A stretch of 64,000 nt of DNA from assembly GCF_029815055.1 (NCBI RefSeq), contig NZ_JAPPWA010000002.1:682001-746000 (forward strand). The letters run 5' to 3'. The stretch is from Ignatzschineria sp. RMDPL8A (GTDB lineage Bacteria; Pseudomonadota; Gammaproteobacteria; Cardiobacteriales; Wohlfahrtiimonadaceae). Numbering within the stretch: the first letter of the stretch is position 1; each line of letters opens with the position of its first letter. Made by a program: the position numbers and the translations under genes. This document shows, one piece after another, positions 167-28,629 of this stretch. The notes beneath the pieces were generated by a model that was not told the origin of the DNA, searched no databases, and worked only from the letters and a program-made list of their open reading frames with translations.

Positions 167-1268
167 TTAAAGCCCCATCTTTAAGCTCGCTTCAATAAAG
201 GGATCGAGATCCCCATCGAGAACCGCTTGGGTATTACCAGTTTCGTGCCCGGTACGCAGATCCTTAATGCGCGCCTGATCGAGCACGTAAGAGCGAATTT
301 GGCTTCCCCAACCCACATCAGCTTTAGTGTCTTCAAGGGCACTTGAAGCTTCCGCACGCTTTTGCAATTCAAGCTCATAGAGTTTTGAACGAAGTTGCGC
401 CATAGCGGTATCACGGTTACGGTGCTGTGATCGGTCGTTTTGACACTGGGTCACAATGCCGGTGGGAATATGGGTAATTCGCACCGCTGATTCCGTTCGG
501 TTAACGTGCTGACCGCCCGCGCCCGATGCGCGATAGACATCGATTTTAAGATCCGATGGATCGATTTCAATGTCGATATTATCGTCAATTTCAGGGGAAA
601 CAAACACAGAGCAAAATGAGGTATGACGCTTGTTATTGGAGTCAAAGGGCGATTTTCGTACTAAACGATGCACGCCCGTTTCGGTTCTGAGCCAACCATA
701 CGCATATTCACCAATAAATTTAATGCTCGCCGATTTAATGCCGGCCACATCCCCATCGGATACCTCAAGCACCTCTGTTTTAAAACCTTTATCTTCACCC
801 CAGCGCAGATACATTCGCAAAACGATCGAGGCCCAATCTTGAGCTTCCGTTCCGCCGGCTCCGGCTTGGATATCGATATAGGCATTCGCGCTATCCATCT
901 CACCGCTAAACATGCGTTGAAACTCAAAGCGCTCGATGAGTTTGGTGCACTCATCAAGATCGAGAGCGATCAATGAGACCGCTTCCTCGTCTTCTTCCAT
1001 TTTGGCAAGGTCCAATAGATCTTTTGAGTCAGTAAGACGGTCGCGAAGCGCTTCCATGCCGCTCACAAAATCATCGAGTCTTGCTCGTTCTTGCCCAAGT
1101 TCTTGGGCGTGTTCAGGATTATCGTTCCAAATATTGGGATCTTCTAGCTCCATTAAGACTTCATCAAGGCGCTCCTTTTTTTGATCGAAGTCAAAGATAC
1201 CTCCGAAGTAGGGAGGCGCGTTCAGTTAAGTCATCAATGATATTATTTAAGCTATTTACTTCTTCCAT
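167..1268 (-). CDS. prfB: Peptide chain release factor 2 (RF2), programmed +1 frameshift
   Basis: RF2 recognises UGA/UAA stop codons and triggers peptide release on the ribosome. The main frame (167-1153, extended upstream) carries the GGQ motif in the stretch [18 protein letters not shown] and the conserved [17 protein letters not shown] segment. The true start is the ATG at 1268-1266. It opens a 25-codon frame ([20 protein letters not shown]...) that ends in CTT TGA C at 1196-1190, after which the main frame continues in +1. With the shift the product is about 366 residues, against 365 in E. coli. Translation is autoregulated: low RF2 lets the ribosome shift at UGA. lysS follows downstream as expected. 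Confidence 0.96.
1190..1205 (-). promoter_or_regulatory. prfB programmed frameshift site
   Basis: Read on the minus strand: CGGAGGTATCTTTGAC. An internal Shine-Dalgarno (GGAGG, 1204-1200) lies just before the CTT slippery codon and an in-frame UGA followed by C. This is the classical RF2 autoregulatory recoding signal. Confidence 0.95.
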
Positions 1269-1314
1269 GGAACGATAATTCTTCTCTATTTAAAAACAGT
1301 TCAATTGTGTGAAC

Positions 1315-1647
1315 TTAGATGCGTTTTACCACACCTTCAACAAAATCCACTAATTGAGCTTTGCTTAAAAGACCGGCGTGTTGTGCTTCAACGTTTCCTT
1401 TGTTGAACACATAAAGTGCTGGAATCGCGCGGATTTGGTATTTGATCGCCATTTGCTGATTATTTTGTACGTCAAATTTAACCACTTTTACTTTACCTTG
1501 ATATTCGGCAGCAAGCTCTTCTACAAGTGGGCCAAGCATACGACAAGGACCACACCATTCTGCCCAAAAGTCTACTAATACAGGAAGATCTGAATTAAGA
1601 ACTTCTGCTTCAAAAGTTGCGTCTGTCGCGTGTACTACGTGGCTCAT
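1315..1647 (-). CDS. trxA: Thioredoxin 1
   Basis: This 110-residue cytoplasmic disulfide reductase has the active site WCGPC at about residues 31-35 (Cys32/Cys35), preceded by the typical LVDFWAE strand and followed by the cis-Pro segment IRAIPALYVF. Length and motif spacing are those of standard thioredoxin. AGGAG precedes the start. It is divergent from rhlB, a neighbourhood seen in many gammaproteobacteria (rhlB-trxA-rho). No sign of damage. Confidence 0.96.
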   Translation of the reverse strand: MSHVVHATDATFEAEVLNSDLPVLVDFWAEWCGPCRMLGPLVEELAAEYQGKVKVVKFDVQNNQQMAIKYQIRAIPALYVFNKGNVEAQHAGLLSKAQLVDFVEGVVKRI

Positions 1648-16723: not shown

Positions 16724-17713
16724 ATGCGAAAGACTCCCTATTTTGATAGCTCAGACCTCTCCACCATTCTCCACTCGAAGCGAGCGAATCTCTACTACTT
16801 GGAATATTGCCGAGTGCTCGTTAATGGTGGTCGCGTTGAATATGTGACAAATGTGGGGAAAGAATCGCTCTACTTTAATATCCCAATTGCGAATACCACC
16901 TGTCTTTTGCTCGGTATTGGAACATCAATTACCCATGCTGCGGTAAGAGATTTATCTAAGGCAGGAGTCATGATCGGTTTTGCCGGTAATGGTGGAACGC
17001 CTCTATTATCAGGAACTGAGCCTGAGATCGGCTGTGATTTCTTCTCGCCACAATCTGAATATCGCCCGACTGAGTATTTACAAAAATGGTGTGGATTTTG
17101 GTTTGATGATGCAAAACGATTATTCGCTGCAAAGTTTTTACAAAAGGCGCGTTTGCAATTTACGCTGAAATGTTGGAAGCGGCATGATTGGTCTTTTGAA
17201 ATCGGAGATTTGGAGTCGGCAGTTGAGGCCTACAATAATGAAATTGACGCGGCTCCAAATACGCAAGCCCTTTTATTAACAGAAGGGCGTCTCACAAAGC
17301 GTCTCTATCATTTAGCCAATAAAGCAACGCTGAATCATGAGGGTTTTAGAAGAGACTCCACAGATGGTGATTACCGCAAGAAAGACCCGACGAATCGATT
17401 TCTTGATCATGGCAATTATCTTGCATATGGGCTCGGTGCGACAGCGACGTGGGTTTTGGGGATTCCGCATGGATTATCGATCTTGCATGGTAAAACTCGT
17501 CGAGGGGGCTTAGTATTTGATGCGGCCGATATTATTAAGGATGGTATCGTATTACCGATGGCATTTATCTCTGCATTAGAGGGCGATAATGAACGTATGT
17601 TTAGAGAGCGGGTTATTATGGAGTTTCGTCAATATGAAGCGCTCGATATGATCTTTGATACCTTAAAGGCGATCTCAGAGTTGGATTTTGATATGAAGCA
17701 TTCAGAGGAGTGA
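16724..17713 (+). CDS. cas1: CRISPR-associated endonuclease Cas1, type I-F
   Basis: 329 residues. The beta-rich N-terminus carries the KRANLYYLEYCRVLVNGGRVEY pattern in two parts, and the C-terminal helical domain carries the metal-binding residues: Glu in LTEGRLTKRLYHLA, His in GIPHGLSILHG and Asp in GLVFDAADIIKDG. These define the integrase that inserts new spacers with Cas2, here fused to Cas3. The I-F assignment follows from overall similarity to Pseudomonas/Pectobacterium I-F Cas1 and the cas2-3 fusion next door. Seven bp separate it from cas2-3. No obvious Shine-Dalgarno precedes the start. Confidence 0.95.
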   Translation: MRKTPYFDSSDLSTILHSKRANLYYLEYCRVLVNGGRVEYVTNVGKESLYFNIPIANTTCLLLGIGTSITHAAVRDLSKAGVMIGFAGNGGTPLLSGTEPEIGCDFFSPQSEYRPTEYLQKWCGFWFDDAKRLFAAKFLQKARLQFTLKCWKRHDWSFEIGDLESAVEAYNNEIDAAPNTQALLLTEGRLTKRLYHLANKATLNHEGFRRDSTDGDYRKKDPTNRFLDHGNYLAYGLGATATWVLGIPHGLSILHGKTRRGGLVFDAADIIKDGIVLPMAFISALEGDNERMFRERVIMEFRQYEALDMIFDTLKAISELDFDMKHSEE

Positions 17714-17720
17714 TGATTTA

Positions 17721-20700
17721 ATGAATATTATTTTAGTCTCCGAATGTACAAAGAAAGCGTTAATAGAAACACGGCGGATTTTAGACCAGTTTGCCGAACG
17801 CACTGGACAGCGAACCTGGCAGACGGCGATTACAATGGAGGGCGTGAAGACAATTCATTATCTTCTTCGGAAAACAGCAAGGCGAAATACAGCCGTTGCC
17901 TGTTTTTGGGTGCGTGGCAAGAATCGCACCGAATTAATGTGGACGGTGGGGAAGCGAGCTGTTTTTGATGAGAATGGGCGCGTGCCGACAAATCGAAGCG
18001 AACGCAATATAGATCCGGGCGCTGAGTTGGTATGGAAAGATGGTAGAACAATAGAAGTTGTTACAGCGATGTCTGCTCTGTTTCACGATCTAGGGAAGCT
18101 TACTGTTGGTTTTCAAAAAAAATTAAGACCCGGTGGAGAAAATGTCGATCCGTATCGTCACGAATGGATTTCGCTTCTGCTCTTTTCCTTAATAATTAGA
18201 GGGTGCGAAACGGATGAAGCTGTTTTAGAACGATTATCGACGTTCACCTTTGATCATGAATGGTATCAAGGTCTGCAAGATATCGATTTTGATCGAGCTA
18301 TCATGACAACGCCTTTGACAAGATTAATTGCATGGCTCATTGTCTCGCATCATCGCCTTCCTTTTATTGAACGAAAGGCGGAATTTAGTGGCAAATATTA
18401 TTCTATTAATGACTTTTTTGAAAACCTCTCAGCAGTACCAGGATGGGTCCGAAATAGTAAGGTTGAATTAACAGATGATTTTAAATTAATTATGGATGAT
18501 CTTGCTGAGATTCATCCTGATATTGCCAAAGAATTTGAGGGTTGGAGTTATGCGTTACGTTATCGGGCGCAAGAAGCATTGAATCTGAAGCTCTATGATC
18601 GGGGAGAAGACTTGCTTTCACCCTTTATAACTTATTTATGTAGAACGGCCTTAATCATGGGGGATCATACTTATTCAAGTATGAGCTATGGCGATAAACT
18701 TAAATTCTATGAGGGCGGTAAAAAGCAGAAAATCCCCTTGATTGCCAATACGCATCGAAGCACAAGAGAGCCAAATCAGCCCCTTTCAAAACATCTGACA
18801 TCAGTGGCTAGATATGCTGGGGATTTTGCCGGAAAGCTCTCATTTTTGCGAGCTGAATTACCGGCATTAAATGATAATCAGGTTTTAAAGCGTTCAAGAA
18901 CCCCTGAGAGATTAAAGAAGTTTATATGGCAAGATAGCGCACGAGACTTAGGGAATAGTTTGAGCATGTCTGCTGAAACTAAAGGTTTTTTTGGGATCAA
19001 TATGGCATCTACAGGGCATGGAAAGACGCTAGGAAATGTGAAAATCATGGCGGCGCTCAATAGCGAGCGAGCAAAGCCGAGAATTACCATTGCACTTGGG
19101 CTTCGAGTTCTGACGCTTCAAACAGGGGAGAAGCTTAAAGAAGATCTCAATCTCTCTGAAGATGAGATTGCAACGCTTGTGGGTGGCGCCGGCATTACGG
19201 CTTTGCAAAAGATGAATGATGAGGAATCTCATCAAGCGGAAAATAGCTCTTCTGAGGATTTTTTAGCGAGTATTGGTAGTGAATCGCAAGCTGAATTTAT
19301 CGATGGCGATGTGTTTGGTGGATATGATACTCCACTCACTGAGGCTGATTTTGGCGTTTTGCTAAATGATAGTAAGGCACGAAAGCTTCTCTATACGCCG
19401 ATTATCTCCACCACGATCGATCATCTAGTACCAGCAACGGAATCTCTTCGAGGAGGTCGACAGATTGTACCGTTATTAAGGCTCTTAACGTCAGATCTGA
19501 TTTTAGATGAAGTTGATGATTTTGGCACGAAAGACCTCTATGCGGTTACGCGCTTGATCTATCTGTCAGGATTGTTGGGGAGCAGAATCATGCTCTCTTC
19601 AGCAACACTCGCACCGGATTTAGTTATCGGGCTTTTTAACGCATATCAAGCAGGTTATAGAGAGTGGCAGAAGCAACATTCATTAGCGGATGATACCGGC
19701 GTTATCTGCGCATGGTTTGACGAATTTAAGCAAGATCATGTAGTCGTTCAAAATGAATCAGCCTTTGAAAAAGCTCATCAATCCTACATTACTCATCGAG
19801 CGATGCAATTAGAAGGGATGCGAGTAACCGCCCCGCAAAGGCAAGGCGTGATTGTGCCATTTACAATGCCAGCATCGACAAATCCTTCTAAAGCAGACTA
19901 TGAAGCTTTTGCACAAAGTCTATTGCCGGCAATCAAACAGATGCATGAATACCACGCTGAGCCAGTACCTGCTTCAAATAGCAAGAATGATCAGGGAAAA
20001 ACGGTCAGTACCGGCATTTTGCGAATTGCACATATTAGCAATATTATTCCCCTGACAAAGGCATTCTTTGAGCTCAATATTAATCAGGATCACGCTGAAT
20101 CATATGCTCTTCACATCGTTCCTTATCATGCAAGACAACTGTTGCTTTTAAGATCAGTTTTAGAAAAGCGCTTAGATCGAATCCTCAATCGTAAAAATGA
20201 AGAGGCGATTTTTAATCAGCCTGAAATTAAAAGAGCGCTCGAAAAGAGTGATGCTAAGCATCATATTTTTATGATTATTGCTTCGCCGGTGATAGAGGTC
20301 GGGCGTGATATTGATGTAAACTGGGCAATTTCAGAGCCTTCGAGTATGGGAAGCTTAATCCAATTATGTGGGCGTGTTTTACGGCATCGTGCTGATAAGA
20401 TTCCAATAGCGCCTAATATTGGAGTCTTAAATAGCAGTATTAGAGCCAAGTTAACGCCGGATTTGATTGGGTATTGTAATCCAGGTTTTGAGGATGCTGA
20501 TCATCGTTTAGTAAAAAACTGGGCGGATGAGCATTTTAAGTATCTGTTTAGGGCCGATGAGATCGCCATTATTGATTCTATTCCAAGAATTATAAAGGTT
20601 TCTGAAAATACCGAAACACCTGTAGGGCGATCGCGAAGAGGAAGAAGGGCGAGTACTGCCGCGCCGGTATTGAAGGTTCATTATCTATCAACGTTGGAGC

Positions 20701-21206
20701 ATTCGGTATTGCACGATCTCTATTTTAAAGGTCGTAATGAGGGCGCTTGTTATAATGATATGAATATCTTTAGCGCTTCCGGGTCGGCATCGCATCTCTA
20801 TGGCGATTTACAGATGCGAACAAGATTCCGTGAGAGTCACGGCGAAGATCGGCGCTATATCCTCTTTCCGGTAGAGGAGATAAAACGTCGGGTAATTGAG
20901 ATCGCTGAATTGAAATTTGTGACTTATGCCTCGATAGAGGATTATAAAACTTGGTTCAATATGCGGGTAGAGGATACCTATGAACAGTTCGTAAGCTCTA
21001 AAGAGATGGATGTTATTCCCGTTGTGGATAATGAATATGTAAAGCCTTGGTTGGTTCCTGATGTGCGAGAAGAATTTGATAAGGTCTGTCGTTATTTTAA
21101 AAATAGATCGCCAAGAAATAATGCGATTCAATTTTTAACCGTCTCTTTGGATTCGAAATATCAGTATGACTTTAATGCGTGGCTTGGGTTTTCTCTAAGG
21201 AAATAA
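17721..21206 (+). CDS. cas3: Cas2-Cas3 fusion: adaptation subunit plus HD nuclease-helicase, type I-F
   Basis: 1161 residues. Domains in order: Cas2-like ferredoxin fold (about 1-95, MNIILVSECTKKAL...); HD nuclease with SALFHDLGK (H122, D123); SF2 helicase with Walker A ASTGHGKT (429-436), DEVD (596-599), motif III LSSAT and motif VI LIQLCGRVLRH; C-terminal domain. It degrades DNA bound by the Csy complex and joins Cas1 in spacer acquisition. Walker A has His where many I-F proteins have Cys. GAGGAG precedes the start. A pseudo-array RNA gene begins right at its stop codon, and its -10 box overlaps that end. Confidence 0.96.
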   Translation: MNIILVSECTKKALIETRRILDQFAERTGQRTWQTAITMEGVKTIHYLLRKTARRNTAVACFWVRGKNRTELMWTVGKRAVFDENGRVPTNRSERNIDPGAELVWKDGRTIEVVTAMSALFHDLGKLTVGFQKKLRPGGENVDPYRHEWISLLLFSLIIRGCETDEAVLERLSTFTFDHEWYQGLQDIDFDRAIMTTPLTRLIAWLIVSHHRLPFIERKAEFSGKYYSINDFFENLSAVPGWVRNSKVELTDDFKLIMDDLAEIHPDIAKEFEGWSYALRYRAQEALNLKLYDRGEDLLSPFITYLCRTALIMGDHTYSSMSYGDKLKFYEGGKKQKIPLIANTHRSTREPNQPLSKHLTSVARYAGDFAGKLSFLRAELPALNDNQVLKRSRTPERLKKFIWQDSARDLGNSLSMSAETKGFFGINMASTGHGKTLGNVKIMAALNSERAKPRITIALGLRVLTLQTGEKLKEDLNLSEDEIATLVGGAGITALQKMNDEESHQAENSSSEDFLASIGSESQAEFIDGDVFGGYDTPLTEADFGVLLNDSKARKLLYTPIISTTIDHLVPATESLRGGRQIVPLLRLLTSDLILDEVDDFGTKDLYAVTRLIYLSGLLGSRIMLSSATLAPDLVIGLFNAYQAGYREWQKQHSLADDTGVICAWFDEFKQDHVVVQNESAFEKAHQSYITHRAMQLEGMRVTAPQRQGVIVPFTMPASTNPSKADYEAFAQSLLPAIKQMHEYHAEPVPASNSKNDQGKTVSTGILRIAHISNIIPLTKAFFELNINQDHAESYALHIVPYHARQLLLLRSVLEKRLDRILNRKNEEAIFNQPEIKRALEKSDAKHHIFMIIASPVIEVGRDIDVNWAISEPSSMGSLIQLCGRVLRHRADKIPIAPNIGVLNSSIRAKLTPDLIGYCNPGFEDADHRLVKNWADEHFKYLFRADEIAIIDSIPRIIKVSENTETPVGRSRRGRRASTAAPVLKVHYLSTLEHSVLHDLYFKGRNEGACYNDMNIFSASGSASHLYGDLQMRTRFRESHGEDRRYILFPVEEIKRRVIEIAELKFVTYASIEDYKTWFNMRVEDTYEQFVSSKEMDVIPVVDNEYVKPWLVPDVREEFDKVCRYFKNRSPRNNAIQFLTVSLDSKYQYDFNAWLGFSLRK

Positions 21207-21208
21207 AG

Positions 21209-21214
21209 TATAAT
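21209..21214 (+). promoter_or_regulatory. -10 box of the crRNA-like RNA gene
   Basis: Perfect TATAAT 3 bp after the cas3 stop codon. The best -35 is poor (TTGGGT at 21184-21189, 19-bp spacing). Transcription would begin around 21219-21222, exactly at the first pseudo-repeat hairpin. Confidence 0.6.
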
Positions 21215-21217
21215 ATG

Positions 21218-21245
21218 CAGAACCGCCGGAAAGGTGGCTGAGAAA
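21218..21245 (+). repeat. Degenerate CRISPR repeat 1 of the pseudo-array
   Basis: 20 of 28 positions match the array repeat. The hairpin is kept (CCGCC / GGTGG with one G-U pair and loop GGAAA), and the 5'-handle reads CTGAGAAA against CTTAGAAA in the array. Csy4 would be expected to cleave 3' of the hairpin and release that handle. Confidence 0.8.
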
Positions 21246-21265
21246 AGTCAGATATAACTTGTAAC

Positions 21266-21285
21266 ATTATCCGCCGAATAGGCGG
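21266..21285 (+). repeat. Degenerate CRISPR repeat 2 of the pseudo-array
   Basis: ATTAT followed by CCGCCGAATAGGCGG. The 15-nt hairpin core is identical to the array repeat and 18 of the first 20 bases match. The 8-nt handle that would follow is lost (TACTATAG), so no further guide can be made. Confidence 0.85.
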
Positions 21286-21300
21286 TACTATAGTACTGAT

Positions 21301-21337
21301 AAAGCCAAGAGTAGTTACATACTCTTGGCTTTTTTTG
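21301..21337 (+). terminator. Intrinsic terminator of the pseudo-array RNA
   Basis: Stem AAAGCCAAGAGTA / TACTCTTGGCTTT (13 bp, perfect) with a short loop and T7. It also insulates csy1-4 from cas1-cas3 transcription, so csy1 needs its own promoter. Confidence 0.92.
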
Positions 21338-21365
21338 TCTTTATGAAAATATTATGAATAAATGG

Positions 21366-21393
21366 TTGACATAAAAAATCATCACGTTATGAT
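21366..21393 (+). promoter_or_regulatory. csy1-4 operon promoter
   Basis: TTGACA (21366-21371) - 16 bp - TATGAT (21388-21393), a strong sigma70 match just after the terminator. The predicted start at about 21400 abuts the guide target. Confidence 0.85.
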
Positions 21394-21402
21394 ATTTTAT
21401 GT

Positions 21403-21424
21403 CCAGTCAAATATAACTTATATT
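21403..21424 (+). promoter_or_regulatory. Predicted Csy-complex operator: PAM plus protospacer for the pseudo-spacer
   Basis: CC at 21403-21404 is the type I-F PAM. It is followed by AGTCAAATATAACTTATATT, matching the pseudo-spacer AGTCAGATATAACTTGTAAC at positions 1-5, 7-15, 17 and 18. Position on the transcript start suits steric repression without full complementarity and hence without Cas3 cleavage. Confidence 0.75.
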
Positions 21425-21471
21425 TTTTAATGAGTTTTAATAATTGCTATGTAAGATTGAAGGAGGTGTAT

Positions 21472-22836
21472 ATGAAAGAATTAGTCCCCTCTATCTTAGC
21501 GGAAATTATCAGACAGTATTTTGAAACTGAACTGAAAATTCCTAGAGATGAGATAGAAGATTGGTTTATCAAAAATGCCGAGAAGGCAGAAGGATTGCAG
21601 TCTGGTAGTCATGTTGCTAAGGGTATCCATTCTAGCTCAAAGGCTTCGAATGTCGTTTTTAAGCCGGATGCAGAATTAGAAGGGCAAGATCTCGGTTTAA
21701 TCGGTACGCACTCTTTGAAGGATATCATCTTAGATGTATCTGGCAATGGGGCATTAATTACTTTGATGCGCGTTGTTGCTATGCCGGTTCAAGAGCGGTA
21801 TCTTTATGATCTGTTAATTGAGGATCACCCAGCATTAGATGGCGTATTTTCTAAAGACCCAGAGAAATCAAAGGCGATTCAAAAAGCCTTAAAATCAGTC
21901 TATTTAACGCCGGAGAAATTGGAGTCAGATGAGCTTTTAAAACAGATTATCTGGCCATTAGATGAAAGCCGTTCTATTGGGGCTGATCACTATCGCAATC
22001 TGATTCCGCTTCATGCTTCTTCCTTTATTTATGAAGCGAACTTACGAATTCGAGAAAGATATAGTGATGAGCAGAAAAAGGCGCGTGAAGCGCGGCGAGA
22101 TTGGCGCAAGATCGAATTGGGTGAGCAGGTAGTAAAGCCAGAAGTGAAGGCCGAAAAATTGGCAGGACTCACGGCTTATGCCAATTTTAAAGATTTAGCA
22201 AGAGTGAAGTTAGGGGGCGCTCACCCTCGTAATGTGGGGCTTCATACTCACAATCTGTTTGGGCGAAATCATCTTTTACCCTCATTCCCACCAAGTACCT
22301 CTTTGGGAAATGCTTTTTTCTTACATAAAGATGCGAAGACGATTTTCGATCAGCGACTTGCGTATCATTGTGAAAATGGTTTTAGAGAGCTTTCAACCGC
22401 GATGAAGCGCATTCAATACCAAGAGTCTAAGAATATTAATATGGCAATTGCCGAGCATTTTAGACTGGCGCTAGATGAGATTTTTTATAGCATCTTGCAA
22501 GTAATGTCAGCGTATCGTGCGCTTCCAGCGGGTTGGAGTGATGCCTATGAACTCAAAGCAATTGAAAAAAATTGGTTAGATCCTAATCGTGAAAAAAATG
22601 CCGGAAAAGCGCTAACACGAGAATCGATTGAGCATTTGGCAGCATCGATTAAAGATTGGGTTGTCAAAACTCAACAGAAGAATAGAGAACTTCAATCGAT
22701 TCTAGAAGGAAAGGGAGAAGCCATGCTCTTTGCGGATAGAGAATATGAAAGTTGGCTTAAAATGCTTAAAGCAACGCTCTTTGATTCGTTAAGTGAGACA
22801 GCTTCGGCAGTGGATAAGGAGGATCACAATGTCTAA
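21472..22836 (+). CDS. csy1: Csy1 / Cas8f, large subunit of the type I-F surveillance complex
   Basis: 454 residues. Recognised by place in the operon and the conserved VKLGGAHPRNVGLHTHN block (compare LGGTKPQNI in Pseudomonas Csy1) followed by LLPSFPP. With Csy2 it forms the tail that holds the crRNA 5' handle and reads the CC PAM. The start at 21472 has AGGAGG 5 nt upstream; the frame opens earlier at 21430 without a ribosome-binding site. Its 3' end overlaps csy2 by 8 bp. Predicted to be repressed by the upstream crRNA-like RNA. Confidence 0.93.
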   Translation: MKELVPSILAEIIRQYFETELKIPRDEIEDWFIKNAEKAEGLQSGSHVAKGIHSSSKASNVVFKPDAELEGQDLGLIGTHSLKDIILDVSGNGALITLMRVVAMPVQERYLYDLLIEDHPALDGVFSKDPEKSKAIQKALKSVYLTPEKLESDELLKQIIWPLDESRSIGADHYRNLIPLHASSFIYEANLRIRERYSDEQKKAREARRDWRKIELGEQVVKPEVKAEKLAGLTAYANFKDLARVKLGGAHPRNVGLHTHNLFGRNHLLPSFPPSTSLGNAFFLHKDAKTIFDQRLAYHCENGFRELSTAMKRIQYQESKNINMAIAEHFRLALDEIFYSILQVMSAYRALPAGWSDAYELKAIEKNWLDPNREKNAGKALTRESIEHLAASIKDWVVKTQQKNRELQSILEGKGEAMLFADREYESWLKMLKATLFDSLSETASAVDKEDHNV

Positions 22837-23824
22837 TCTCGATTTAAATCAGCAAAGCGTGTATCAGTATTTCTTAGCGCTTGATCATATCGATGCGAAA
22901 GATGTGAATGCGATTTCAGGAAGCCTTATCTATGGTACGCCCGCACTAACAGCAACGGCTGGGTTTGTGCATAATCTTAATCGTCAAATTCAAACATTGC
23001 CGGAATCAGCATTAGGCGTAGCGGTTAATCTGAAAAAGATTCAGCTTGAAGGTTTTATGGTAATCGCTCATCAGTGCGAGCCGAAGATATATCGTGAACA
23101 TTCAGGGCAGGATTATACATTTTTATTAAAAAAAGCACCTTTAACGCGATCAGGGGCAAATCCGCCGATTATTGAAGAAGGGCGACTCGATTATCTCTCC
23201 TCTTTAGTCGTTCGCTTTAAGACATCAGAGTTATTGAGTAAAGATCAACAAGAGGCACTCGGTAGAGCGATTAAAAATTTAATCCCAACTCTTCGTTTAG
23301 CTGGTGGAACCATTGCCTCGATTCGTGGCGCTTGGATTTTTAATCATAATGATTTAGTTGGCAGAGAGATTCTACAAAAAATCGGCTTTGGTTATGTGCT
23401 TTTATCGCAAGAAAAATTGTTAGAGCAACTCGTAATGGAAGGCGATGGATCTGAGGCTCTGGAGGGATCAGAAACTCAGAAAGATGGTCTTGATTATCTA
23501 TTGGATACCGCAAGAATCTACTATCATCCGCCTAAAGATGAACATAGCCGCTGGACGATTCGAACACTTCAGCAGGGGCGTGGTTGGTTAGTGCCATTAA
23601 TGGTGGGATATCAGGCAATTAGCGATGTAATAGCGCCAGGCGAACTTGAAAATATTAGGAATCCCGAATATGAGAGTCAATTTGTAGAGTCAATCTATTC
23701 ATTAGGAAAATGGGTGCTGACATATCGTTTACTTAATGACCCAAACCAGAAACTCGAACAATTATTTTGGAATGTATCTACTTCAGATGAGCTCTATTTA
23801 GTAGAGCAAGCATTTGAAGATTAA
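22829..23824 (+). CDS. csy2: Csy2 / Cas5f subunit of the type I-F complex
   Basis: 331 residues. The N-terminal pattern AISGSLIYGTPALTATAGFVHNL in two parts, HQCEPK, and the FNHNDLVGREILQKIGFGYVLL stretch fit Cas5f. It binds the crRNA 5' handle together with Csy1. The ATG at 22829 follows AAGGAGG and overlaps the csy1 stop, so translation is coupled. The frame is also open upstream within csy1 (from 22793), which is not used. Confidence 0.92.
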   Translation: MSNLDLNQQSVYQYFLALDHIDAKDVNAISGSLIYGTPALTATAGFVHNLNRQIQTLPESALGVAVNLKKIQLEGFMVIAHQCEPKIYREHSGQDYTFLLKKAPLTRSGANPPIIEEGRLDYLSSLVVRFKTSELLSKDQQEALGRAIKNLIPTLRLAGGTIASIRGAWIFNHNDLVGREILQKIGFGYVLLSQEKLLEQLVMEGDGSEALEGSETQKDGLDYLLDTARIYYHPPKDEHSRWTIRTLQQGRGWLVPLMVGYQAISDVIAPGELENIRNPEYESQFVESIYSLGKWVLTYRLLNDPNQKLEQLFWNVSTSDELYLVEQAFED

Positions 23825-23893
23825 CTTAACCATTGTGTATTTAAATAACAGAATCAAGATTGAATCATTTTATAAATTTAGGAGATATTGATT

Positions 23894-24859
23894 ATGACTA
23901 AGGTAACTTATCCAACCGTTCTCGCTTTTGAGCGTAAATTTGATTTTTCGGATGTCTATTTTGCGCAAAAGCACGCATCATCGACAGAAACGTTTCCGAT
24001 CGCTTTAATTGAAAAAACAGTACTCGGAACGATTTCTCATAAGAGTGCAAAAGAGGCCGATAAAAAATCAGCAAATATTCAACGTGTTGATGTAGCACAG
24101 CTCGATAGTGATAAAGATCAGTTAGTTGCAACGCTTAACTTTAAGGTTTTACCATTTACAGGTAAGCCATGGAGCTGTAATGAACCTGCATTCCAAGATA
24201 AACTTGTGGCGCTCGTTTCGGATTATTTAGCCGATGAGAAAAATATTAAAGTATTAGCCGATCGTTATGCCTACAACATTTTAAATGCAAGATGGTTATG
24301 GCGTAATCGTATTGCTGCGAAAAGCGTGTATATTGAGATTACTAAAGATGGTGAAAATGCGCCTTTTATCACGATCGATGATGCAAAATTACTCCCTCTA
24401 CAAGAATTTTCAAGTAGTAAAGAAGTAGATCTTTTAGCATCTGAGATTATTAAAGGCCTAAAAGGGGAGGTATTCACGAACCTTAAGATTGTCGCAACAG
24501 CACATATCGGTGAAGGCCATGAAGTCTATCCATCACAAGAATTCGTGCAAGAAGCGAGTTCAGCAAAAGGCGGAAAGAGCAAAGTCCTTTATACAACGAA
24601 TGAGACAGCTGGCATGCACTCACAAAAGGCAGGGAATGCAATTCGTACCATTGATACTTGGTATGAAGATGCTAGCTTCCCAATTGCGATTGAACCTTTT
24701 GGGACTGTTTCAACGATGGGTGAGGCATTTAGAGCAAAAGATAACTTCTATAAATTCTTTGAAGATTGGGTTGTTAAGGATAAAGAGATTACGGCAGAAC
24801 AGAAACATTATGTGATCGCGAATCTTCTTAGAGGTGGCGTATTTGGTGGAAAGTCTTAA
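23894..24859 (+). CDS. csy3: Csy3 / Cas7f backbone subunit
   Basis: 321 residues. Typical opening YPTVLAFERKFDFSDVYF and ending (AEQKHYVIANLLRGGVFGGK), with the HSQKAGNAIRTIDTWY segment in between. Six copies form the helical backbone along the crRNA, and its thumb displaces every sixth guide base. The ATG at 23894 is preferred over the TTG at 23888, with TAGGAGA upstream. A stable hairpin separates it from csy4, which may help the high Csy3:Csy4 ratio. Confidence 0.95.
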   Translation: MTKVTYPTVLAFERKFDFSDVYFAQKHASSTETFPIALIEKTVLGTISHKSAKEADKKSANIQRVDVAQLDSDKDQLVATLNFKVLPFTGKPWSCNEPAFQDKLVALVSDYLADEKNIKVLADRYAYNILNARWLWRNRIAAKSVYIEITKDGENAPFITIDDAKLLPLQEFSSSKEVDLLASEIIKGLKGEVFTNLKIVATAHIGEGHEVYPSQEFVQEASSAKGGKSKVLYTTNETAGMHSQKAGNAIRTIDTWYEDASFPIAIEPFGTVSTMGEAFRAKDNFYKFFEDWVVKDKEITAEQKHYVIANLLRGGVFGGKS

Positions 24860-24881
24860 TCGCTTAAAACCTTAACGACAG

Positions 24882-24928
24882 AGATATCGAATGATCTATC
24901 TTTATATGAGTCGATCGATTCGATATCT
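24882..24928 (+). other. Stem-loop between csy3 and csy4
   Basis: AGATATCGAATGATC (24882-24896) pairs with GATC-G-ATTCGATATCT (24913-24928), giving 15 bp with one bulged G and a 16-nt loop. No U-run follows, so it is more likely a message-stability or processing element than a terminator. Confidence 0.65.
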
Positions 24929-24967
24929 TACCTCAGAATTAAATATTAAGAAGAGAAGGAGTAAGTA

Positions 24968-25540
24968 ATGATTATTACTCATTATTTTGATCTAAAGGCG
25001 ATTCCTCAAGAGGATATGACTGAAGATCTTATCATTAGCGAATTAATGGAGCGGCTCCACGTATTGTTAGTGAGTACTAATTTAAAAGGACAAATAGGGA
25101 TAGGTTTTCCTAACTATAACCTCAATAAGCGCTTAGGTGGCATTATTCGGGTTTTTAGTAGTGAAATTGTTCTAACCGATTTTGAAAAAGCGGTGAGGGC
25201 TGACTCAACGATTCGGGATTATTCAATCGTGACGGATAATAAAAGGGTGCCGGAACAGGTCGATAAACATGTTGTCTTTGCGCGTTTACGTTCTAGACAC
25301 CTTAGTCAAAGCCAGATTCGCCGCTATCAAAAACGCCATCCTGATAAATGGACCAAGGATGTAGCGGAGCAGGCTTTAGATAATCGTGAGCGATTATTTG
25401 GGATTCCACATTTTAAAATGAATAGTGGTAGTAACAAACAGCATTTCACTATTTGGGTTAAAAGACAGGAAAAACCAGAAACGATTGGTGAATTTGGGAG
25501 TTACGGTTTAAGTAACAAGGCGACTGTGCCAATCTTTTAA
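24968..25540 (+). CDS. csy4: Csy4 / Cas6f, CRISPR RNA-processing endoribonuclease
   Basis: 190 residues. The catalytic His (H31 in MERLHVLLV, equivalent to H29 of Pseudomonas Csy4) and the GSNKQHFTIWVKR segment containing the partner Ser are present. It ends SYGLSNKATVPIF as in the family. The arginine-rich helix for repeat recognition is RSRHLSQSQIRRYQKRH. It cleaves pre-crRNA at the 3' base of each repeat hairpin and stays bound as the complex head. AGGAG precedes the start. It should also process the pseudo-array RNA. Confidence 0.95.
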   Translation: MIITHYFDLKAIPQEDMTEDLIISELMERLHVLLVSTNLKGQIGIGFPNYNLNKRLGGIIRVFSSEIVLTDFEKAVRADSTIRDYSIVTDNKRVPEQVDKHVVFARLRSRHLSQSQIRRYQKRHPDKWTKDVAEQALDNRERLFGIPHFKMNSGSNKQHFTIWVKRQEKPETIGEFGSYGLSNKATVPIF

Positions 25541-25721: not shown

Positions 25722-28629
25722 GTTACCCGCCGAATAGGCGGCTTAGAAAGTTATAGATCGAGGCTCTGAAAGCTTCTGCAAGTTACCCGCCGAATAGGCG
25801 GCTTAGAAAAATCCCAACACCTAAAGCATCGTTATCAGCTTGTTACCCGCCGAATAGGCGGCTTAGAAATCAAATAACTCTAGTAAATTTTTCATTTTAT
25901 TGTTACCCGCCGAATAGGCGGCTTAGAAAGAAAAGATTGATGGACTGCCGTGAACGAGTAAGTTACCCGCCGAATAGGCGGCTTAGAAACTACGCCTAAA
26001 TACTCTTTTAGCTCCTGCTACGTTACCCGCCGAATAGGCGGCTTAGAAATCAAGCGTAAAAGTAACAGGGGAAGCCTTACGGTTACCCGCCGAATAGGCG
26101 GCTTAGAAATTCACCAAAAGACGGGGACGATATATGGGTATGTTACCCGCCGAATAGGCGGCTTAGAAATTTACCCTTTACATGCCAATCCTTTTACATG
26201 CGTTACCCGCCGAATAGGCGGCTTAGAAAGTTAAATTGGTATCTGTAAATTCAGTGCTAATGTTACCCGCCGAATAGGCGGCTTAGAAATACCCAAATCC
26301 ATGAACCGCATAATTCGACTTGTTACCCGCCGAATAGGCGGCTTAGAAAAGGTTCAGGCAAGACATATGAAGCCGTTTTTAGTTACCCGCCGAATAGGCG
26401 GCTTAGAAATCTGTAAGTGAGAGATGGGGGGATTATGAAACGTTACCCGCCGAATAGGCGGCTTAGAAACATGATATTTATTTCACTTTCATTGATCGAA
26501 GGTTACCCGCCGAATAGGCGGCTTAGAAATTTTGGGCATTAAAAATGCCGCCATACCATTCGTTACCCGCCGAATAGGCGGCTTAGAAATTCGAGCTTAA
26601 TAATGCCCTGTTGAATTTGCAGTTACCCGCCGAATAGGCGGCTTAGAAACGTCGCCTCACTTCATGCTTATTGGTTAACTCGTTACCCGCCGAATAGGCG
26701 GCTTAGAAATAACGGTCTACGCATAGTAACATCCCGTTGATGTTACCCGCCGAATAGGCGGCTTAGAAATTTCTCAATCGTTCCGTCTAACTTGACGATG
26801 AGTTACCCGCCGAATAGGCGGCTTAGAAACTCCCCATCTTTTCGTTGATAGGTATCAATGAGTTACCCGCCGAATAGGCGGCTTAGAAAATTAATCCAAG
26901 AAGCTAGAAAAGAGATTATAGGTTACCCGCCGAATAGGCGGCTTAGAAAAATCGCTTTGGTATCGTTATGTTCTTGCCAACGTTACCCGCCGAATAGGCG
27001 GCTTAGAAACACACGAACCATAGTCCGCATCACAAACTCCGGTTACCCGCCGAATAGGCGGCTTAGAAAAACATTTAACAACATTCCATTTTTAACAGTG
27101 TGTTACCCGCCGAATAGGCGGCTTAGAAAATAAAGACTGGTCGACCGAGATACGTTGCAAGGTTACCCGCCGAATAGGCGGCTTAGAAATTAATTAAAAG
27201 CGATCCGAGCATTAGCGCTATGTTACCCGCCGAATAGGCGGCTTAGAAATTTTGAGCCATTATCTCGATCAACCATCGATCGTTACCCGCCGAATAGGCG
27301 GCTTAGAAATTGCGCCCAATCTTCATAGAGTGAAATGATATGTTACCCGCCGAATAGGCGGCTTAGAAATGCAAGCCGGATGGGGTTTTTTTTGACTCCA
27401 TGTTACCCGCCGAATAGGCGGCTTAGAAAAATTATCAAAGTCATCCCAATCAAAATTAACTGTTACCCGCCGAATAGGCGGCTTAGAAATAACAAATAAT
27501 CTTTGCAGAAGCTTTCAGAGCGTTACCCGCCGAATAGGCGGCTTAGAAAATACTCTTCACCGCACTGGGTACATTGATACAGTTACCCGCCGAATAGGCG
27601 GCTTAGAAAAGACTCGACATTCTCAATTTTAACCGCTGAATGTTACCCGCCGAATAGGCGGCTTAGAAACGTTAAAGCTTGAAACGTAAAAAACCCCCGA
27701 AGTTACCCGCCGAATAGGCGGCTTAGAAATAAGCAGTTAATCTCAGCTTATCTAAACGGCCGTTACCCGCCGAATAGGCGGCTTAGAAACCGCCAGCCTT
27801 CCATGAAACTCTTCAGGATGGGTTACCCGCCGAATAGGCGGCTTAGAAACATGGCGATCAATCACAAAACCCATGCAATCAGTTACCCGCCGAATAGGCG
27901 GCTTAGAAAATAAAGCGGTTCTTTTTTTCGTAAAAGCAATAGTTACCCGCCGAATAGGCGGCTTAGAAAGCACTTCATTACAGCTTTGGAGCAATCCAAT
28001 CGTTACCCGCCGAATAGGCGGCTTAGAAATTTAGTTATCAAGTAATCTCGATTCGGTAAGAGTTACCCGCCGAATAGGCGGCTTAGAAATTGATGGCCTG
28101 TATTAATTGACTTGATATACTGTTACCCGCCGAATAGGCGGCTTAGAAATTATCGAGCGTCATATTCAATCTCTCTGTTCTGTTACCCGCCGAATAGGCG
28201 GCTTAGAAATTGAGTCGTGCGCGAACGGAACGGCGCTGTATGTTACCCGCCGAATAGGCGGCTTAGAAATTCAGAAATGAGAACTAATACAACTTCAGAC
28301 AGTTACCCGCCGAATAGGCGGCTTAGAAAACTGGACGGGTAAGCTCGAAACAGAAAAGAAGGTTACCCGCCGAATAGGCGGCTTAGAAATTCGAAACCAA
28401 ACAGCTCCATAAACTCAAGCGGTTACCCGCCGAATAGGCGGCTTAGAAATTAATCGGAGTTGATTTAGAACCATCTATTTTGTTACCCGCCGAATAGGCG
28501 GCTTAGAAAAAAGGTCAAAACAGTTACCCGTTTATGGATATGTTACCCGCCGAATAGGCGGCTTAGAAAGTTGAAATTTGAACACTACCGCTAGAATTAT
28601 TGTTACCCGCCGAATAGGCGGTTTATGGA
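25722..28629 (+). CRISPR. Type I-F CRISPR array: 49 repeats, 48 spacers
   Basis: The 28-bp repeat consists of GTTACCCGCCGAATAGGCGG followed by the handle CTTAGAAA. Repeats begin at 25722 and recur every 60 bp without exception, so every spacer is 32 bp. 48 repeats are identical; the last (28602-28629) keeps the first 20 bases but ends TTTATGGA, marking the old, trailer end. The palindrome CCGCC/GGCGG is the Csy4 hairpin. No spacer matches elsewhere in the window by eye. Spacers 1 and 30 overlap on opposite strands. Apparent reading frames inside (for example 26858-27133) are repeat artefacts. Confidence 0.99.

Follow-up and report, generated by a model that had tools for sequence, protein, structure and literature searches.

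What occupies the space between cas2-3 and csy1 in the type I-F CRISPR-Cas locus of Ignatzschineria sp. RMDPL8A? The locus (cas1, cas2-3, csy1-csy4 and an array) lies complete inside the window, by which we mean the whole 64,000-nucleotide stretch of DNA that was analysed, and its cas2-3/csy1 gap of 265 bp houses a mini-array, a terminator, the csy1 promoter and a target for the guide that the mini-array carries. An earlier note had proposed that the RNA from this element is a CreR-like guide directed at the promoter of csy1-4. We consider it very probable that positions 21218-21293 are a CreR-type regulatory mini-array that steers the Csy complex to this promoter. The features on which the argument draws are as follows.

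16724-17713: cas1, above the NCBIfam cut-off.
17721-21206, plus strand: cas2-3 (Cas3f), TIGR02562, 873 bits, above the NCBIfam cut-off.
21209-21214, plus strand: TATAAT, the likely -10 of the mini-array, read from the sequence and kept in relative L004; it did not score as a full promoter.
21218-21245, plus strand: psiR1, a degenerate repeat with a 5-bp stem and the handle CTGAGAAA, from sequence and folding; both sides of the stem are changed in relative L024.
21246-21265, plus strand: the guide, 20 nt, AGTCAGATATAACTTGTAAC, from sequence, its match to the target and the structure-only survey.
21266-21293, plus strand: psiR2, a degenerate repeat with a stem-loop as in the array, from sequence and folding.
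21301-21340, plus strand: intrinsic terminator of the mini-array, a 13-bp stem and T run, fold z-score -6.3.
21366-21393, plus strand: csy1-4 promoter, TTGACA-16-TATGAT, 11 of 12 consensus positions.
21403-21404, plus strand: CC PAM of the target, from sequence; in the related loci, all 24 of the best matches adjoin CC.
21405-21424, plus strand: guide target, 16/20, directly downstream of the -10, from matching and a genome scan.
21472-22836, plus strand: csy1 (cas8f), leading gene of the operon predicted to be controlled, TIGR02564, 197 bits, above the NCBIfam cut-off, ribosome-binding site AAGGAGG.
22793-25540, plus strand: csy2, csy3 and csy4, the remainder of the operon, TIGR02565, TIGR02566 and TIGR02563, each above the NCBIfam cut-off.
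25722-28569, plus strand: CRISPR array of 48 repeats, which would supply competing crRNAs, Rfam CRISPR-DR4 and repeats.

The degenerate two-repeat mini-array is present between cas2-3 and csy1 as the earlier note described it. Both repeats fold into hairpins with 5-bp stems and 5-nt loops; the stem of psiR1 is CCGCC/GGTGG and its handle ends at 21245, and the psiR2 stem-loop (21271-21285, CCGCCGAATAGGCGG) is identical to the stem-loop of the array repeat. The guide is flanked by two cognate repeat-like hairpins outside the array and within the cas locus, which is a feature of cas-regulating mini-arrays, and the element lacks the near-identical repeats and spacers of about 32 nt of a canonical I-F array, its repeats being degenerate and its guide 20 nt long. 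The intrinsic terminator claimed for it is borne out and is strong, with a 13-bp stem at 21301-21332 followed by a T run (chance expectation 0.1). The claim of a promoter of its own holds in part: the TATAAT is a good -10, but it comes without a scored -35. Read-through from cas2-3, whose stop lies 2 nt upstream, could possibly supply the transcript.

Downstream, TTGACA at 21366 and the TATGAT behind it agree with the promoter that the earlier note had assigned to csy1, a prediction that is consensus-based. The target AGTCAAATATAACTTATATT begins 12 nt past this -10 and is mismatched with the guide at positions 6, 16, 19 and 20. The 16/20 match was confirmed as exceeding chance: none of 5,000 dinucleotide shuffles of the region, and none of 5,000 of the guide, reached 16, and the second-best CC-flanked site for the guide in the region scores 9/20. 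Across the whole genome the csy1 site is the only good CC-flanked match to the guide, the others being the guide itself and one weak match without CC. The guide is thus complementary in part to a site that adjoins a PAM and lies at its own cas operon's promoter. Owing to the mismatch at position 16, the match falls slightly short of those of most relatives.

The earlier note had made its proposal depend on the conservation of guide-target pairing in relatives. We drew I-F loci both from named genomes and from a sample across the class, collecting them by Csy3 alignment (a search with Cas2-3 alone returned nothing, and no csy3 match was found in the same-species genome G096), and scanned 124 csy1 upstream regions for a mini-array together with a match next to CC that scored at least 13/17, omitting positions 6, 12 and 18. 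Both were found in 31 of the 124, with complete turnover of sequence, and this conserved pairing supports the proposal that the guide is directed at the promoter of csy1-4. Among the hosts are Shewanella, Pseudoalteromonas, Colwellia, Amphritea, Legionella and Methylococcaceae, as well as records labelled Helicobacteraceae, Desulfocapsa and Veillonellaceae. Relative to csy1, 26 of the mini-arrays are divergent and five, including the window's, are co-oriented. The targets are again at the csy promoter; in most of the divergently oriented loci the PAM immediately precedes a -35-like hexamer. Guide length ranges from about 15 to 33 nt, nearly all guides being shorter than 32 nt, and because of this variation a strict scan for a spacing of exactly 20 nt missed most relatives.

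Closer to the window, genome G007, from the same family and with a csy1 55% identical, has the identical layout in the identical place. Its repeat stem reads CTGCT/AGCAG where the window has CCGCC/GGTGG, and its guide ATTTAGTAGTTATTTTGTTT, which differs from the window's, has a CC-flanked target of its own that matches at 17/20 and is mismatched only at positions 6, 12 and 18. Taken alone this match is weaker evidence than the window's, because the guide is AT-rich and 31 of 5,000 shuffles of it equal its score. Within the window's order, pairing is kept, though the sequence has changed, in L024, L017 and L022, in the last two of which the mini-array is on the opposite strand.

Presence of the element goes with the size of the cas gap. 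Among loci with measurable gaps, a mini-array was found in 31 of 40 whose gap measures 180 bp or more and in 0 of 71 with a smaller one, the 71 including some loci without the element that were fetched, and so counted, twice; csy1 starts in relatives were set by rule, and some csy1 distances are off (for example L049 and L075). Predicted effector autorepression by a dedicated guide would then be the common state in I-F loci whose csy1 stands well apart. We inspected the large-gap loci without a mini-array (L015, L054, L062, L066, L070, L084, L106, L111 and L112): the large gap of L015 is an artefact of the chosen start codon, L084 retains one hairpin, and some of the others seem to have no cas3 beside csy1. 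Weak hits at L025, L065, L078, L100 and L108, and at L006 and L023 in a looser scan, were rejected as chance, being in coding sequence or without repeat hairpins. A separate observation concerns two loci of the window's family with a short cas2-3/csy1 gap (L019 and L021, minus strand), in which a lone repeat-like hairpin, ACTCTGCTGAAAAAGCAGCTTAGCGG, stands right before csy1 with neither guide nor target; it could be what is left of a mini-array, or else a site in the csy1 leader to which Csy4 binds.

As controls, we compared guides with the upstream regions of other loci, where 8 of 928 pairs reached at least 13/17, and scanned 620 shuffled regions, 31 of which produced a hit (six at 14/17 or better, and none with a perfect handle). 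Since the scan had required both CC and a match, we ran a second survey in which mini-arrays were picked on repeat structure alone and the best match was sought without regard to a PAM. It yielded 26 mini-arrays, 24 of which have a best match of at least 13/17; the two below this are a single locus fetched twice. All 24 good matches lie beside CC, against a background CC frequency of 3.3%. Counted by guide position, the matches among these 24 are 24, 23, 24, 24 and 24 at positions 1-5 and 6 at position 6; 24, 23, 22, 22 and 23 at positions 7-11 and 11 at position 12; 24, 22, 23, 18 and 20 at positions 13-17; and 6, 10 and 9 at positions 18-20. Pairing is thus approximately complete at 1-5, 7-11 and 13-17, partial at 12 and near chance at 6 and 18, so that the tolerance of a mismatch at position 6, suggested earlier for the window, holds across the family. 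Cascade-type complexes read DNA by skipping each sixth base, and for this reason the pairing looks selected as a target of the Csy complex. In Legionella drozanskii and L. nautarum (L082 and L087) the guides differ from one another at position 6 alone, a position that needs no pairing.

From the sequence we infer the following course of events. Csy4 would cut the mini-array transcript at both hairpins to give a crRNA-like RNA of about 48 nt (8+20+20), predicted to span 21238-21285, with CUGAGAAA at its 5' end and its 3' end at 21285. Loaded into the Csy complex, this RNA would lead it to the CC-flanked site just past the csy1 -10, where the bound complex would block transcription of csy1-4; a target past the -10, as in the window, or a PAM before a -35-like hexamer, as in most divergently oriented relatives, should in either case obstruct RNA polymerase. 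A 20-nt guide that pairs to about position 17 should form an incomplete R-loop, leaving the site bound and uncut by Cas2-3. Pairing stops at about 17, and almost no guide is as long as 32 nt; a full R-loop and recruitment of Cas2-3 are therefore not expected. These guides may share a rule in which 17 positions, paired in three 5-nt blocks, separate binding from cutting. A quantitative rule of this sort, describing guides that should bind without cutting, would be useful for the design of CRISPRi, and would also help in understanding how hosts answer anti-CRISPRs. By analogy with CreR (PMC13131331, PMC12737573), the outcome expected is negative feedback on the level of Csy, which should relax once array crRNAs or anti-CRISPRs occupy the complex.

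In the window and in L024 the mini-array shares the orientation of cas1-cas2-3, starts immediately behind the stop of cas2-3 and has a strong terminator, so that the guide may be a product of the 3' end of the cas2-3 transcript. We put forward only tentatively, as a rather doubtful extension, that the adaptation and nuclease operon thereby governs how much repressor of the effector operon is made and that I-F guides share the 17-position rule across phyla.

The I-F mini-array belongs to a kind already described, and the principle of autorepression is already published. Shmakov et al. in 2023 reportedly described regulatory mini-arrays that target the promoters of cas8 genes in systems across type I, and one I-F1 mini-array that they tested is said to act as a regulatory guide; these elements resemble the window's in having two repeat-like sequences around a guide with partial complementarity to the promoter of a cas gene, notably cas8 (csy1). 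Workman et al. in 2021 reportedly found that Cas9 is autoregulated by a long-form tracrRNA, which is similar in that a natural guide, by a short stretch of pairing, lets a CRISPR effector repress its own promoter, but differs in being type II and in using a form of tracrRNA instead of a mini-array. CreR (cas-regulating RNA; Liu et al. 2023, Cell Host Microbe 31:1481, as presented in PMC13131331 and PMC12737573) is documented in those two accounts for types I-B, I-E and V-A. It shares with the window's element a crRNA-like RNA, limited complementarity to a cas promoter and an expected autorepression relieved by crRNA or anti-CRISPR, whereas the window's mini-array is of type I-F. We class the window's mini-array with the known kind because of CreR in those types and the reported I-F1 mini-array. 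Less familiar, perhaps, are the co-oriented form that follows cas2-3 directly and carries a terminator of its own, and the clean rule of 17 positions across the family.

CreTA, a type VIII toxin-antitoxin found in Acinetobacter I-F loci, offers another way to read the same anatomy, namely as a module in which the guide holds in check a small toxin RNA or peptide, harmful to the cell once Csy fails. There, as in the window, a crRNA-like RNA with a 20-nt guide and a CC-flanked partial match (17/20 in Acinetobacter) is encoded in the cas3-csy1 gap, so that position, guide length, PAM and pairing pattern are those of creA; the CreA product was sequenced as 8+20+20 nt, and its guide gives about 7-fold transcriptional repression that requires the Csy complex and dispenses with Cas3 (Wang et al. 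2023, PMC10097628). CreTA, however, represses a divergent toxin gene, creT, whereas the window's target promoter runs directly into csy1 and the mini-array, unlike creA, is co-oriented with csy1. Only 47 nt separate the target from csy1, and a search of this interval in the window found neither a separate ORF nor a creT-like toxin gene. Its ATG at 21430 is in frame with csy1, so a separate gene cannot fit there; the start of csy1 is most likely not this ATG but 21472, behind AAGGAGG. With no toxin gene under the target promoter, and none that would fit, the mini-array appears to work like CreR and not like CreTA, and a toxin-guarding module is very unlikely.

That the element is a decayed array remnant or a defence spacer, with a functionless match to the promoter, seems slightly more improbable still. 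Its repeats are degenerate, and one-spacer arrays can come from decay; yet the guide is 20 nt and not 32, and guide and target change together in 31 loci with the hairpins kept, which decay would not yield. A search of viral contigs found no exact copy of the guide. Hardly credible is antisense action, in which the RNA would pair not with DNA but with the leader of the csy1 mRNA. A small structured RNA resembling that leader might suggest it, but in the window guide and csy1 mRNA are of the same sense, which excludes such pairing, most divergently oriented relatives have the target upstream of the promoter and outside the mRNA, and RNA pairing leaves both CC and the 6-nt periodicity unexplained.

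Other features of related loci were seen in passing. In a Veillonellaceae MAG (L085) the stretch between the target promoter and csy1 holds a long inverted repeat, rich in G+C, that seems to be an inserted repeat element. A 1.5-Mb genome of the window's order (G020:C12, locus L020) has csy1-3 without cas2-3 directly upstream, and its csy3 match contains two in-frame stops. Immediately upstream of csy1 in five loci is a protein of about 58-73 amino acids that starts M-x-[KR]-[KR]-Y-V-x-x-E-T, for which searches gave no Pfam match over the cut-off and no PADLOC match:

L028, 2028-2237: small pre-csy1 ORF.
L032, 1975-2241: small pre-csy1 ORF.
L099, 2045-2233: small pre-csy1 ORF.
L031, 2070-2243: small pre-csy1 ORF.
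L121, about 1191-1388, minus strand: small pre-csy1 ORF.

Because it lies behind the targeted promoter in four of the five loci, this protein may be co-repressed with csy1-4.
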